Notes under the pieces: generated by a model
What the model was told of the DNA's origin: nothing
What the model saw: only the letters and a program-made list of their open reading frames with translations
Databases searched by the model: none
Part shown: positions 51,056-57,874 of the stretch, in pieces
How the letters are laid out: every line of letters begins with the position of its first letter
How positions within the stretch are numbered: the stretch's first letter is position 1
Assembly (NCBI GenBank): GCA_023954375.1
Contig: JAMLIC010000002.1
Location: 124,001-188,000 of the forward strand
DNA: 64,000 nt
Direction of reading: 5' to 3'
From: Planctomycetota bacterium
GTDB lineage: Bacteria > Planctomycetota > J058
Program-made: the position numbers and the translations under genes

Positions 51056-53832
51056 CTACCTGAGCCGCCCCACGTACTGCCGCCAGTCGGCCTCCATGCG
51101 CTCGAGGTCGAGCGGGGCGAACACGCGGTCGAAGGCCTTCTCCAGGTCGAGCCCCTCGCGCAGGGCCTTGAAGTACTCGCGCAGGAGCTTCTGCCCGCCC
51201 GGCGACGAGCCGAGGTAGTGCACGAACGACCAGGCGTGCGCGTAGTTGACCCCGGCCTGGGCGCCGCGCATGAACGTGCGGTGGTCGGCCGTGAGCAGGC
51301 GCTGGAGCGGCAGGGGGCGGGGGTACTCGCCGGAGAGGGAGAGCTTGATGTCGTGAAGCCGGCTCGGCGGCGCCTGCGGCACGAGCCCGTAGCGCAGCTC
51401 CGTGCGGCCGAGCTCGCTCATGCCGAAGTACTCGGCCAGCCCCTCGTCGAACCAGCGCGGGGCGTCCTCGACGTAGAGGTCGAGCCACTGGTGGAAGGTC
51501 TCGTGCAGGAGCGTCTCGAGGGTGCTCTTCGAGACGAGCCCGCCGCCCTTCCGGAGCCCCTCGTCCTGGTCGTAGAAGACGAGGAGCCGGTAGGGCGGCC
51601 AGTAGTAGCCGAGCGTGTTCTCGGTCGAGCCGACCTGGAGCCGCGCGGAGTAGGTCTCGAACTGCCCGCGGTCGGAGAAGACGATGACGGTCGGGACGAC
51701 CTCCCCCGGGCGGTCGGGGCCGAACAGCTTGTCGTAGGCCTTGTAGGCCTTCTCCATGACCTTGCCGAGCTCGTCGAGGCCCTTGTGGCGCCGGCGCGCG
51801 CGCTCGACCTGCTCGAGGCGCTTGCCGGCGTCGCCCTCGGCCTGGAGGCGCTGCTCGAGCTGCGCCAGCTCGGCGCGGCTGAGGCCCAGGTCGGTGATCA
51901 CCCGGTAGTGGCCGTCGTCGGTGCGCCCCTCGAGCACGTCGGCGGCGCGCTCGTAGCGCTGGCGGAAGGGCCCGTCGACGACCAGGCGGAGGCGCGTGTC
52001 GCGGAGCGCCTCGTGGTCGAGGAGCTCGCGCACGACGTCGAGCCGGCCGAGGTAGAGCGCGGCGAAGGCGCGGTCGTGCACCGCCTGGAGCGTGACGTCG
52101 CCGGCCCGGGTCAGCGCCTCGAAGGCCTGGCGGTACTCGCGGGCGTCGAAGTGGAGGAGCCCGCGCGCGGCGAAGACCTCGGGCACGTCGCCGTGCTCCT
52201 CGAGCTGCCGCTGGAGGGCCAGGACGCCTGCCATGTCCTTCTTGCGGAAGCAGTCGTAGAGGCGCAGGAGCAGCGGGCGGGCCGGCGACGCGGCGACCGG
52301 GCGCGGCGCGACGCGCACGACGGGCCGCTCGTCGTCCTCGTCGTCAGAGACGTCGGGCTTCTGGTCGGCCGGCGCGGGCGGGCTCCACGCCTCGGGCTCG
52401 TCGTCGTCCGGAGCGGGCGGGGCGGGAGCGGGCGCCGGGGCGGGCTCGCGCGGCGCGCGCGGGGCCACGGCGACCGGGCGGGGCTCGGCCGGGACGGTCG
52501 GCGCCGGGGCGGGCTCGGGGTCGCCGGCCGCCAGGGCGACGAGCGCGTCCTGCGCGCCGCGCACGACGGCGCGGGCGGCGACCGGCGCGCCGGCGGCGGC
52601 CTCGACGTCGCGGGCGACCGCGGCCAGGCGCGCCTGCGCCTGCGTGTGCCCCTCGCGGGCGGCGACCCGCCAGGCGCGCGCCACCTCGTCGTGCGCCCAC
52701 GCGTGCCAGTGCTCGGGCGAGCGCTCGTTGCGCGGCACGAGCCCGGCCCGCTCGGTGGACGGGGGCGGCGCGGCCACGGGCGCCGGCCCCGGCCCCGCGG
52801 CGACCTCCGGCGGCGGCGGCGCGGGCGCGCGCAGGACCTGCACGGCCAGCGTGCCCAGGACGCCGACGGCGAGGCCGATCCCGACCAGCAGGAGCGGCGT
52901 CCCGCCGAGCGCGGCCGGTCGCCGCTCGAGGCGTTCGGTCCCGCGCCGCGGGGCGCGGCCCGAGGCGACGGCCTTGAGGTTCTTGCTGCTCGGCGTGGGC
53001 GACGCCGCCGCGGTCTGCGCCGGCGTCGTCGCGCGCGGCGGCGGGGCCGCCGTCTGGGGTCGGGGCGCCGCGCCGGCGACCGGCGCGACGGGGGCGGCCG
53101 GTCGCGGGGGCAGGGTCGGGGCGGGCGGCGGCGCCGCGATCGGGCGCGGCGGCGGCGGCGGCGGGGCGTGCGCCGGGGCGCGGCGGCGGCGACGGCCGGC
53201 CGCGGCGGCCCGACGGGGACCGGCCCGGCCGGGCCCGGCGCCGACGCGAGGCGCGGCGTCGTCGACGGCGCGCCCGGTCGGGGGGCCGGGATCACCACGC
53301 GAGGGCCCGCGGCGGTGGCGACGATCCGCGGCCCCGCGGTCGCGGGCGGAGCGGCAGCCGCGGGCGGCGGCGACGCCACGGCGTCGGGGGGAGGCGACGC
53401 CGGGATCTCGGGGGCGCCGGTCGAGGGCTGCGCCGGCGGGGCGGCGTTCGCGTCGGGGGGCTCGCCGGACGCGATCGGCACGACCTCGGCGGCGGGCGGC
53501 CCGTCGACGGCCGGCGCGGGCGGCGGCTCGCTCGCAGCCGCCCCGGGCGTCCCCTCGGCGGCAGCCGCGGCCGCTTCGCCGGTCGGCGAGCCGCTCGGGG
53601 TCAGCCCGGCCGGGTCGTTCGGGGCCGTCGCCGACTCCGCGGCCGGGGGGGCGGGCTCGGGCGCGCCGGGGGCCGCGTCAGCCGGGGCTGGTGAAGGACT
53701 CGCGGCCTCGGCGCTGGCGCCCTCCGGGGCGGAGGAGCCGGGAGGCTCCTGCGACGCTGCGCTCGGGGGCGCTTCCGGTTCGGTCCCGGGGGACGGCGAG
53801 GGGGACGAAGGGTCGAGGATCGGGTCGGTCAC
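51056..53832 (-). CDS. membrane-anchored DUF1570-type metallopeptidase-like protein (one frameshift)
   Basis: About 925 residues after repair. The start is GTG 53832 with AGGGG upstream. Residues 1-215 are Pro/Ala-rich and the sense then moves to the next frame near 53186, where one base is missing. After a TM helix (TPLLLVGIGLAVGVLGTLAV) come helical repeats and a C-terminal DUF1570 domain with gluzincin motif LLHETFHQWLDLYVEDAPRW and FDEGLAEYFGMSELGR, an intact HExxH plus the downstream Glu. The peptidase probably acts outside the cytoplasm. Bases 50984-51055 separate it from the two secretin-like genes of the operon. Confidence 0.75.
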
Positions 53833-54529: not shown

Positions 54530-55579
54530 TCACCTCAGGAGCATGGCGTCGCCGTAGCTGAAGAAGCGGTAGCCGCGGGCCACCGCCTCGGCGTAAGCGC
54601 CGAGGATCGCCTCGCGGTCGGAGAAGGCGGAGACGAGCAGGAGGAGCGTGCTCCTCGGCAGGTGGAAGTTGGTGATCAGGGCGTCGACGAGCCGGAAGTC
54701 GAAGCCGGGCGTGATGAACAGGTCCGTCTCGCCCTCGGGCGCGCCCGTGCGCGCGTAGGCCTCGAGGGCGCGCACGACCGTCGTCCCGCACGCCACGACC
54801 GGGGCCCCGCGCGCGCGGGCCGCGGCGAGGCGCTCGCGCGCCGCCGCGGGCACCTCGTAGCGCTCGGCGTGCATGACGTGCTCCTCGACGCGCTCGACGC
54901 GCACCGGGCAGAAGGTGCCGAGGCCCACGTGGAGGACGACGCGCGCGACCTCGACGCACTTGGCCTCGAGCGCGGCGAGGAGCGCCGGCGTGAAGTGGAG
55001 GCCGGCCGTCGGCGCGGCGATCGCGCCGGGGACCCGGGCGAACACGGTCTGGTAGGCCTCGCGGTCGCCGGGGTCGGGGCCGACGGCCGGGCGCTTGATG
55101 TAGGGCGGCAGCGGCATGCGCCCGAGCCGCTCGGCGACCTCGAGCGACGCCGCGCCCGGCGGGAAGCGCACGACGTAGCGGCCGCCGCCGAGGGCCTCGT
55201 CGAGGGCCAGGCGCACGTCCGTCGGCGCGCCGCTCCCGGCCTCGAGGAGCGTCAGCGCCTCGCCGGGCGCGCGCAGCCGACCGCCCGCGTTGACGATCGC
55301 CTCCCAGCGCTCGTCGCCGAGCGGGCGGACGAGGAGCACCTCGACCTTGCCTCCCGTGTCGCGGCGCCCCGCCAGGCGCGCGGGGATGACGCGCGTCTCG
55401 TTGAGGACGAGCAGGCTCCCCGGGTCGAGCAGGTCGACGACGTCCGAGAAGACGCGGTGCTCGAGCGGCGCCTGGCCGCGCCGGTCGACGACGAGCAGGC
55501 GGCACGCGGCGCGGTCGGTGAGCGGCGCCTGGGCGATGAGCTCGGGGGGGAGGGGGAAGTCGAAGTCGGAGATGTTCAC
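54530..55579 (-). CDS. queA: S-adenosylmethionine:tRNA ribosyltransferase-isomerase
   Basis: 349 residues, full length. QueA transfers and isomerises the ribosyl part of AdoMet to 7-aminomethyl-7-deazaguanine at tRNA position 34, making epoxyqueuosine. Family motifs are clear: FDFPLPPELIAQAPLTDRAA, LLVLNETRVIPARLAGRR, GAIAAPTAGLHFTPALL, VVLHVGLGTFCPVRVERVEE, ITNFHLPRSTLLLLVSAF and YRFFSYGDAMLL. The start is GTG 55579, one base after the anti-sigma stop, with GAGGTGA as ribosome-binding site. It is thus the third gene of the sigma unit. No tgt or queG is in the window. Confidence 0.97.
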   Translation of the reverse strand: MNISDFDFPLPPELIAQAPLTDRAACRLLVVDRRGQAPLEHRVFSDVVDLLDPGSLLVLNETRVIPARLAGRRDTGGKVEVLLVRPLGDERWEAIVNAGGRLRAPGEALTLLEAGSGAPTDVRLALDEALGGGRYVVRFPPGAASLEVAERLGRMPLPPYIKRPAVGPDPGDREAYQTVFARVPGAIAAPTAGLHFTPALLAALEAKCVEVARVVLHVGLGTFCPVRVERVEEHVMHAERYEVPAAARERLAAARARGAPVVACGTTVVRALEAYARTGAPEGETDLFITPGFDFRLVDALITNFHLPRSTLLLLVSAFSDREAILGAYAEAVARGYRFFSYGDAMLLR

Positions 55580-55580
55580 G

Positions 55581-56534
55581 TCACCTCGGGCCGTCGCCGG
55601 GCGCCCGGTCGTGGCGCTCGACCAGGCGCAGGAGCTCGCGCAGGAGCGGCCGCGTGGCCGTGATCACCAGCCCGTTCGCTCGCGGGTCGAGGGCCACCCG
55701 CGCCGGCGGGTCACCCTCCTCGGTCAGCTCCTCAGCGGCGCGCTCCAGGAGCGCCACGAGGACGTCGGCCTCGGCGCCGCCGACGTGTCGCAGCGGCACG
55801 ACCTCGGTGACGCGCTCGGCCTGGATCGTGCTGCGGGCCACGGCGCGCAGGAGGCCGTCCGCCTCCTCCACGAGCTCGAACGCGCCCGCGGCCTGGACGA
55901 CCGCGTTCATCGCCCGGAGCCAGTGCACGTCGGCGAGGTCGACGCTCACGGTCCCCTGCACCTCGGGCGCGAGGATCAGGCGCTGGCCCTGGCCCTCGGC
56001 GAGGTCCAGGAGGACCTGCCGGACGTCCGCGTCGTCCACCCGCACCGAGACGATCGCCCCGGGGGCGTCGCCGGCGGCCGTCCGGTCGTGGCGCTCGACC
56101 AGGCGCTGGAGCGCGCGCAGGAGCGGACGCGTGGCCGTGATCACCAGGCCGTTCGCCGCGGGGTCGAGCGCCACCTGCGCCGGCGGGTCGCGCGCGTCGC
56201 GGCGCTGCTCCGCCGCGAGCCGGAGGAGGCGCGCGAGGGCCTCGGCCTCGACGCCGCGGACGTGGCGCAGCGGGAGGAGCTCCGTGTGGAGCATGGGCTC
56301 GAACGACGACGTGGGCACGATGCGGAGCAGGTCGTGCCTCTCCTCCACGATCGTGAAGTCGCCCGCGGTCCTCACGATGGCGTGCATGGCCTGGAGCCAG
56401 TGCACCTCGTCGACATCGACGGTCACCGTGCCCGTCAGCGCCGGGTCCAGGATCAGGCCCACCCCCTGCGGCTCGGCGAGGTCCACGAGGACCTTCCGGA
56501 GGTCGGCGTCGCGCACCCGCAACGAGACGGTCGC
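55581..56534 (-). repeat. in-frame tandem duplication of a 477-bp coding unit
   Basis: The two copies (about 56058-56534 and 55581-56057) code secretin N-domain units. Near-identical stretches occur at 55606 and 56083 (CGGTCGTGGCGCTCGACC), 477 bp apart and in frame, so the duplication is fairly recent. Confidence 0.75.
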
Positions 56535-57308
56535 CGCGCGGTCGATCACGAGCGCGCCGGTGTCGAGCACCTCGACCGAGCAGCGCAGCAGGAGGGCCAG
56601 CTGGTCGAGCACCTCGCGCCAGGGGCCCTCGCCCGAGAAGCTCACGCGGTCGGCCACGCGGCACGTGATCGGCCGTCCGGCGGCCGCCGCCAGCCGGGCG
56701 AACACCTGCTCGGCGGGGGCGTCGCGCACGTCGACCCGCACGCGGTCGCCCGCCGTCCCCGCGGCGAGCGGCTCGACCACGAGCGCGGGGCCGGCCGGCG
56801 CCGCCGCGCGCGGCGGCGTCAGCGCCGCGACGGCGGCGACCGCCCCGGCGCCCAGCAGGCCGACCCAGGGCGCCCAGCGGCGCCGCCGCGCCGGCGCCGG
56901 TCCCTCGGCCGCGCGGACCCGCCGCGTCTCGCCGCAGCCCGGCGCGCTGCAGCGCCCGTGCTCGGCGAAGCACTCGTCGTGGTGCGGCGCCAGGCACGCC
57001 CCGCAGAAGGTCGCGGCCGCCCGCTCGAGCGCGTCGCGGCAGAACGAGCAGGCGAGCGCCACCCGCGGCCCGCCGCGCCGGTCGCGCTCGGCGGCGATCC
57101 GCGCGGCCAGCCCCTCCCAGCCGTCGGGCGCCGCGGCCGCCGGGGGGAGGGTCAAGGCGTCGAGCAGCGCCGCGACCCGCCCCTCGGCGGCGCGGCGGCA
57201 CCCGTCACAGGCGGCGAGGTGCGCCTCGACCTCGGCCTCCGCCGGGGGCTCGAGCAGGTCGAGCCCGCGGGGGAGGAGGAGGGGGGCGATCTCCGGGCAG
57301 GCGGTCAC
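55581..57308 (-). CDS. anti-sigma-like zinc-finger protein with secretin/STN periplasmic domains
   Basis: 575 residues from GTG 57308, overlapping the sigma stop as GTGA. Residues 20-50 carry the anti-sigma zf-HC2 motif (EVEAHLAACDGCRRAAEG). Residues 85-125 are a RING/B-box-like cysteine-histidine cluster (CSFCRDALERAAATFCGACL, then HHDECFAEHGRCSAPGC). One TM helix (WVGLLGAGAVAAVAAL) crosses the membrane. The outside part has an STN-like domain and two copies of a 159-residue unit with VSLRVRDADLRKVLVDLAEP / VSVRVDDADVRQVLLDLAEG and LDPAANGLVITATRPLLRAL / LDPRANGLVITATRPLLREL, both of secretin N-domain type. It probably holds the sigma factor until a periplasmic signal. Confidence 0.8.
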   Translation of the reverse strand: MTACPEIAPLLLPRGLDLLEPPAEAEVEAHLAACDGCRRAAEGRVAALLDALTLPPAAAAPDGWEGLAARIAAERDRRGGPRVALACSFCRDALERAAATFCGACLAPHHDECFAEHGRCSAPGCGETRRVRAAEGPAPARRRRWAPWVGLLGAGAVAAVAALTPPRAAAPAGPALVVEPLAAGTAGDRVRVDVRDAPAEQVFARLAAAAGRPITCRVADRVSFSGEGPWREVLDQLALLLRCSVEVLDTGALVIDRAATVSLRVRDADLRKVLVDLAEPQGVGLILDPALTGTVTVDVDEVHWLQAMHAIVRTAGDFTIVEERHDLLRIVPTSSFEPMLHTELLPLRHVRGVEAEALARLLRLAAEQRRDARDPPAQVALDPAANGLVITATRPLLRALQRLVERHDRTAAGDAPGAIVSVRVDDADVRQVLLDLAEGQGQRLILAPEVQGTVSVDLADVHWLRAMNAVVQAAGAFELVEEADGLLRAVARSTIQAERVTEVVPLRHVGGAEADVLVALLERAAEELTEEGDPPARVALDPRANGLVITATRPLLRELLRLVERHDRAPGDGPR

Positions 57309-57874
57309 GAGCGACCTCCCTCGAGCAGCTTGCGGGTCAGGCGGTCCAGGGCGGCCTGCAGGCGGTTGCGCACCGTGCGCTCCGTGCAGCCGTACACCGC
57401 GGCCAGGTCGTCGAGCTTGAGCCCCAGCCCGTGGCGCATGACGAGCAGCGCCCGGTCGTCGTCGTCGAGCGCCGCCAGGGCCGCGCGCGCCGCCCGCGCG
57501 TCCTCGCGGGCGGCGGTGTGGCGCGCCACCCGGTCGCTCACCGCGCGCTCCGGCTCGTCCTGCGGCGGCGCGCATGCCTTCCTCCGGGCCCGGAGGGCGT
57601 TCAGGGCCACGTTGCGGGCGATCGTCAGCAGCCAGGGGCGGAAGGGGCGGCCGGCGTCGTAGCGGTCGAGGTGCTCGTGGACGCGGAAGAACGTCTCCTG
57701 CAGGGCGTCCTCGGCGAGGGCCGGGTCGTCGAGCAGGCGCAGCAGGAGCCCGTACACCGGCCCCCGATGACGCTCGTAGAGCGTCCGGAACGCGGGCCCT
57801 CCCGGGTCCTCGCGGGCGAGGAGCGCCAGGCGCGCGTCCGGGGCGGCCTCGGTGCCTTCTTCCATGACGATCAC
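57305..57874 (-). CDS. ECF-type RNA polymerase sigma factor
   Basis: 189 residues. The start is GTG 57874 with GGAGGG four bases upstream; ATG 57865 is a possible alternative. Sigma region 2 (FRTLYERHRGPVYGLLLRLL, LAEDALQETFFRVHEHLDRY, FRPWLLTIARNVALNALRAR) and region 4 (LLVMRHGLGLKLDDLAAVYG, CTERTVRNRLQAALDRL) are intact. It should direct transcription of a stress or envelope regulon under control of the co-encoded anti-sigma protein downstream. The 86-bp gap from thiI leaves room for its own promoter. Confidence 0.95.
   Translation of the reverse strand: MIVMEEGTEAAPDARLALLAREDPGGPAFRTLYERHRGPVYGLLLRLLDDPALAEDALQETFFRVHEHLDRYDAGRPFRPWLLTIARNVALNALRARRKACAPPQDEPERAVSDRVARHTAAREDARAARAALAALDDDDRALLVMRHGLGLKLDDLAAVYGCTERTVRNRLQAALDRLTRKLLEGGRS

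Follow-up and report, generated by a model that had tools for sequence, protein, structure and literature searches.

A Planctomycetota ECF anti-sigma factor with an outer arm of PilQ-type secretin domains

In the current study, a 575-aa protein encoded beside an ECF sigma factor in a Planctomycetota genome was found to carry, in this order, a zf-HC2 domain, a helical linker, a RING domain, an RRRRW stretch with a membrane helix, an STN domain and two N0-N1 pairs. Its architecture, its pairing with the sigma factor and the origin of its outer arm, as well as the pil operon and M50 genes discussed below, were deduced by sequence and structure comparison, from which it appears that the arm was taken over from PilQ, the type IV pilus secretin of the same lineage, before its N0-N1 pair was doubled. 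The most likely role of this arm, to which we assign a probability of roughly 45%, would be to report the assembly of the secretin/pilus machine, whereby a change in its contacts would lead to proteolysis of the anti-sigma factor and release of the sigma factor.

The window analysed here is a stretch of 64,000 nucleotides, in which the genes of the locus all lie on the minus strand:

57305-57874 (-): ECF sigma factor, 189 aa, with Sigma70_r2 and r4_2 domains
57305-57308 (-): GTGA stop/start overlap (4 nt) of the sigma and anti-sigma genes
55581-57308 (-): anti-sigma gene, 575 aa, GTG start
54530-55579 (-): queA, whose GTG start lies one base after the anti-sigma stop (TGA-c-GTG)

The original prediction, made from the DNA sequence alone, had placed an ECF sigma factor and a fused membrane anti-sigma here, with a GTGA overlap and queA coupled behind them, and the gene order bears out each of these points. 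An ATG at 57865, 9 bases downstream of the listed sigma start, is a possible alternative start. In a genome of the same genus (L038), queA again directly follows the copy of the anti-sigma gene.

The domains of the 575-aa protein are encoded as follows:

57189-57308 (-): class I anti-sigma (zf-HC2/ZAS) domain, residues 1-40, ligands C4, H30, C34 and C37
56928-57053 (-): Prok-RING_1-type C4HC3 zinc domain, residues 86-127
56817-56873 (-): single membrane helix, residues 146-164, preceded by RRRRW, N-in and C-out
56535-56750 (-): STN domain, residues 187-258
56073-56531 (-): unit A, an N0-N1 pair, residues 260-412
55593-56060 (-): unit B, an N0-N1 pair, residues 417-572

In Pfam searches with the 575-aa protein alone, zf-HC2 (1.2e-3, residues 17-38), Prok-RING_1 (7.6e-5, residues 86-127) and STN (4.2e-5) all matched under their curated cut-offs; Secretin_N (2.9e-12) and GspD N0 (3.9e-9) each matched in two stretches, the PilQ model TIGR02515 of NCBIfam matched twice (3.5e-23), and the secretin barrel domain PF00263 had no Pfam match in the protein. 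The profile search of the outer part, which had been proposed together with structure prediction, recovered Secretin_N, GspD N0, STN (below cut-off) and PilQ alike, and AlphaFold gave five beta-alpha-beta domains (residues 187-246, 260-332, 340-412, 419-491 and 499-567) with pLDDT values mostly of 70-90 that were low only at the linkers and the membrane segment; the low overall pTM of 0.26 means that the model fixes the single domains and not their arrangement. All 46 Foldseek matches at E<=0.001 were secretin periplasmic domains, and the view that the outer part consists of secretin N-domain modules only is accordingly upheld, as is that of a single membrane helix. The tandem unit of 159 residues is also real, units A and B being 61% identical in that register, with the additional STN domain preceding both. 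Regarding the second zinc cluster, described originally as RING/B-box-like, the RING half of the description stands while a B-box identity was ruled out by the match to Prok-RING_1 (C4HC3).

The weak zf-HC2 and RING matches of the single protein were accepted because members of a wider family match both models and keep the ligands invariant. In this genome and its relatives, many ECF sigma factors turned out to be paired with anti-sigmas that have this cytoplasmic part; Prok-RING_1 was matched by all 14 members scanned (E<=0.1) and zf-HC2 by 12 of the 14, while H30, C34 and C37 together with the RING ligands C87, C90, C102, C105, H110, C113, C120 and C125 are invariant in 15/15 family sequences and C4 is nearly so. 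On this comparative footing both assignments can be regarded as solid, and the zf-HC2 residues proved to be conserved in homologues, as the original prediction demanded. Among class I anti-sigmas of known structure, RsiW (1.8e-5) and ChrR (4e-4) are also hit by the family profile; the Hx3Cx2C motif thus lies in a helical domain at the N-terminus that has homologues among solved anti-sigmas, as is required of class I. The family is present in nine of ten genomes of the order, whereas among 382 other genomes sampled from the phylum three gave one weak match each, to the RING part only; the relatives that carry a name are MAGs of Planctomycetota, a few of them going by 'bacterium' only. This ECF/anti-sigma family, with its shared HC2+RING module and differing outer parts, is order-restricted.

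Exactly 4 nt of sigma/anti-sigma overlap is seen in 15 of the 16 other family pairs (L067 being included by taking a GTG start 6 nt further in) and 1 nt in the sixteenth. Distances among the sigma factors correlate with those among the N-terminal parts of the anti-sigmas, with r=0.87 over 17 pairs and r=0.72 over the 15 that are left once near-duplicates are removed (Mantel p 0.0002). For comparison, the published correlation is 0.82 for true pairs, while negative controls gave 0.5-0.6 (PMC7406223); shared ancestry of the genomes may account for part of the present signal. The 575-aa protein is, in our assessment, a probable anti-sigma factor paired with the co-encoded ECF sigma and predicted to bind it.

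As in RsiW and ChrR, the HC2 domain is N-terminal by profile and the protein is co-encoded with an ECF sigma factor; unlike in these class I zinc anti-sigmas, a RING is inserted ahead of the membrane helix and the outer part is secretin-derived. The presence of two zinc clusters with invariant ligands, and of the same RING in many other membrane proteins of the genome, would be in keeping with a redox or zinc sensor of the ChrR/RsrA kind in which the outer arm is a mere anchor. We consider this improbable, as the arm is conserved across two N0-N1 units and is 86% identical to the same-genus copy, and as many membrane-bound class I anti-sigmas possess a zinc motif for which a structural role has been proposed (PMC7406223).

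Concerning the origin of the arm, the four top-scoring PilQs of the same family gave 93-97 bits with a profile of the tandem units, and two further ones gave 81-83 bits. Most PilQs from other Planctomycetota reached 41-73 bits, and the other secretins examined from its own genome stayed at or below about 12 bits. In a maximum likelihood tree, the A and B units of this genome and of its congener, four in all, cluster with the seven PilQs of the family (support 97/92), apart from 20 other PilQs; the branch leading to the units is long (1.48), which makes their placement inside this clade approximate. It is this grouping with the bacterium's own family of PilQs that argues for capture from PilQ, and a type II secretion (GspD) origin was rejected on the same bit scores. 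Since unit A of one species groups with unit A of the other, and B with B, the duplication is older than the split of the two species. The protein shares with PilQ the STN-N0-N1 order and sequence (TIGR02515 and the tree), and differs from it in lacking the secretin barrel, in its inner- rather than outer-membrane location, in the doubling of N0-N1 and in the absence of the Gly-rich N1 insert. Nine Secretin-domain matches in the genome would leave room for an arm that communicates with another secretin system of the cell, be it type II secretion or similar, but there is only a slim chance of this in view of units so PilQ-like and so little akin to the other secretins of the genome that were examined.

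An STN domain on the anti-sigma itself, rather than on a receptor only as the original prediction assumed, is already known from the FecR-class anti-sigmas PupR and FoxR: the periplasmic C-terminal domain of PupR comprises a juxta-membrane subdomain and an STN domain, both of which are needed for binding the receptor STN (PMC7186176), and the periplasmic part of FoxR likewise ends in STN (PMC11637429). The features that are new here are the PilQ-derived N0-N1 cassettes, the RING module and the absence of a receptor; a search of open PMC papers turned up none describing an anti-sigma that bears either a RING or secretin domains of the N0-N1 kind. In common with FecR, PupR and FoxR, the protein displays ECF pairing, one membrane helix, a periplasmic STN fold and presumed regulated proteolysis, whereas a zf-HC2 class I domain and a RING replace the FecR domain (no FecR-family Pfam match at E<=1) and the outer part numbers five secretin-type domains including two N0-N1 pairs. 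Foldseek matches of a paralog model include PupR (6ovk), FecA and a Bacteroidetes anti-sigma, which share the STN fold and could be taken to favour FecA/FecR-type cell-surface signalling, in which the STN of a TonB-dependent receptor contacts that of the anti-sigma. The original prediction correctly observed that no receptor is adjacent; moreover, no STN-Plug receptor was found in the whole genome (10.1 Mb, about 90% complete), whose one Plug domain match lies on a contig without an STN match. Taken with the missing FecR domain, this led us to reject a FecA-type receptor partner, and this mode of signalling is very unlikely here and largely refuted. The 575-aa protein and the CSS anti-sigmas may nevertheless share a principle, namely that a secretin-type domain of the anti-sigma meets a secretin-type or docking domain.

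In the mechanism that we infer, comprising sigma binding, partner, signal and proteolytic release, the HC2 domain would sequester the sigma factor and the RING would act as a second structural or docking zinc module. The arm would engage envelope partners through contacts of the N0/N1 type, candidates being free subunits of a secretin, further copies of the protein itself, and proteins akin to PilP or to GspC/GspB; a changed contact would then expose the arm to proteolysis, and a membrane protease would cut the anti-sigma and free the sigma factor. The genome possesses a PilM-N-O-PilP-like-PilQ operon (G000:C57; here PilN and the PilP-like gene were recognised from where they lie and from their shape rather than from a Pfam match), several M50 membrane proteases and 64 Sigma70_r2 matches. 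The protein at the PilP position (L058, 3966-5306, minus strand) has 447 aa, with TPR-like repeats followed by a short C-terminal beta domain, and differs from the short PilP lipoprotein of Proteobacteria.

In Neisseria, the C-domain of PilP binds the PilQ N0 domain at its first strand and helix (beta1-alpha1) (PMC3441751). This contact face is just 9/23 identical between the arm and the bacterium's own PilQ, as against 29/57 for the rest of N0, and inherited PilP binding is for this reason unsupported; the face was consequently not accepted as evidence that PilP binds. When unit A is compared with unit B, the face is the more alike part (16/23, versus 28/57 for the rest of N0), which, small as these numbers are, hints at a constraint of its own. 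The divergence of the face from PilQ, the distance of the anti-sigma gene from the pil genes and the freely varying outer parts of the family would all be expected of a general envelope sensor, whose arm contacts no secretin machine but self-associates or binds wall or ligand, with proteolysis controlled as in RseA/RsiW. These outer parts encompass STN arrays, STN with beta-propeller-like repeats, HEAT and PDZ domains, and a low-complexity or disordered tail; paralogs with propellers, HEAT-PDZ or disordered tails on the same cytoplasmic part count against the pilus reading, and it follows that the pilus is not the general signal of the family. Such a general sensor is somewhat unlikely as an overall explanation, the PilQ-type STN-N0 and PilP-like tail of certain paralogs pointing to secretin-machine partners. 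Compared with the self-contained sensor suggested in the original prediction, a partner in the pilus/secretin machinery is at least as likely because the outer part derives from PilQ.

Two of these anti-sigma paralogs, L059 (5594-7627, plus strand) of the same genome and L094 (3-2012, plus strand) of another genus, carry a PilQ-like STN-N0 pair and additional copies of STN, and end in an all-beta domain reminiscent of the C-terminus of the lineage's PilP-like protein. Their STN-N0 pairs are 51-52% identical to PilQ (that of L059 being 51% identical to its own PilQ), and in an STN-N0 tree a 97/95 clade of other PilQs excludes the sequences from this lineage, both anti-sigma and PilQ. The C-terminus of L059, modelled as an all-beta domain at 615-674, resembles that of the PilP-like gene beside pilQ (iE 1.3e-4 in a small database) and Pfam T2SSB (0.0015). 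An HR fold was considered for it and set aside, with weak sequence support and none in a PDB sequence search or the top 50 Foldseek matches. Because L059 combines the PilQ-like STN-N0 with a PilP-like/T2SSB-like C-terminus, parts of the pilus alignment complex would seem to recur among HC2+RING anti-sigmas. The broader proposal, that a family of ECF anti-sigmas is built from such parts (PilQ STN-N0-N1 in the 575-aa protein, PilQ STN-N0 plus a PilP-like tail in the paralogs) and monitors pilus/secretin assembly through its docking contacts, is put forward tentatively. An apparently secreted protein, L071 (3412-5631, plus strand), has STN/N0 repeats and an L059-like C-terminus without a RING, and joins L059 in the STN-N0 tree.

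The complete architecture was seen in one assembly; in the same genus, the 86% identical copy runs into a contig end at residue 182, and its N-terminal half was not found in that assembly at E<=1e-10. An assembly artefact is an unlikely source of the fusion, as family members are collinear across the HC2-RING-membrane-STN junction. For the outer part, dN/dS was 0.77 by NG86 and 0.16 by YN00, values on which the methods disagree, with GC3 near 0.98, and which were therefore set aside.

These findings extend the use of STN in anti-sigmas from receptor contact to whole N0-N1 cassettes of the cell's own pilus secretin, and suggest how the condition of a surface machine might be sensed directly by the cell, a piece of the pilus pore possibly serving as the sensor that informs genes about that same machine. 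According to published work, members of one anti-sigma group mostly keep the same outer domains (PMC7406223); in contrast, one conserved sigma-binding/RING module has here been swapped onto many outer domains inside a single Planctomycetota order.

The RING also occurs well beyond this family, with about 87 Prok-RING_1 matches in the whole genome (G000; e.g. L063, L065, L066, L074 and L075). Several of the proteins inspected consist of a RING, one membrane helix and an outer part that differs from case to case, with TPR and VWA-like domains among the types seen, and many are without a sigma partner; the 575-aa protein resembles them in its cytoplasmic C4HC3 followed by one membrane helix, and differs in being joined to an anti-sigma domain and a sigma gene. 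The RING-helix unit is, judging from these proteins, probably a lineage-specific general membrane-protein module. At L063 (4019-6120, plus strand), an ECF sigma factor is followed by a RING-membrane-TPR protein without the HC2 motif, possibly a zinc-free anti-sigma variant. Within the window, 51056-52843 on the minus strand encodes a large Pro/Ala-rich protein with a zinc-peptidase-like motif (HETFH...E).
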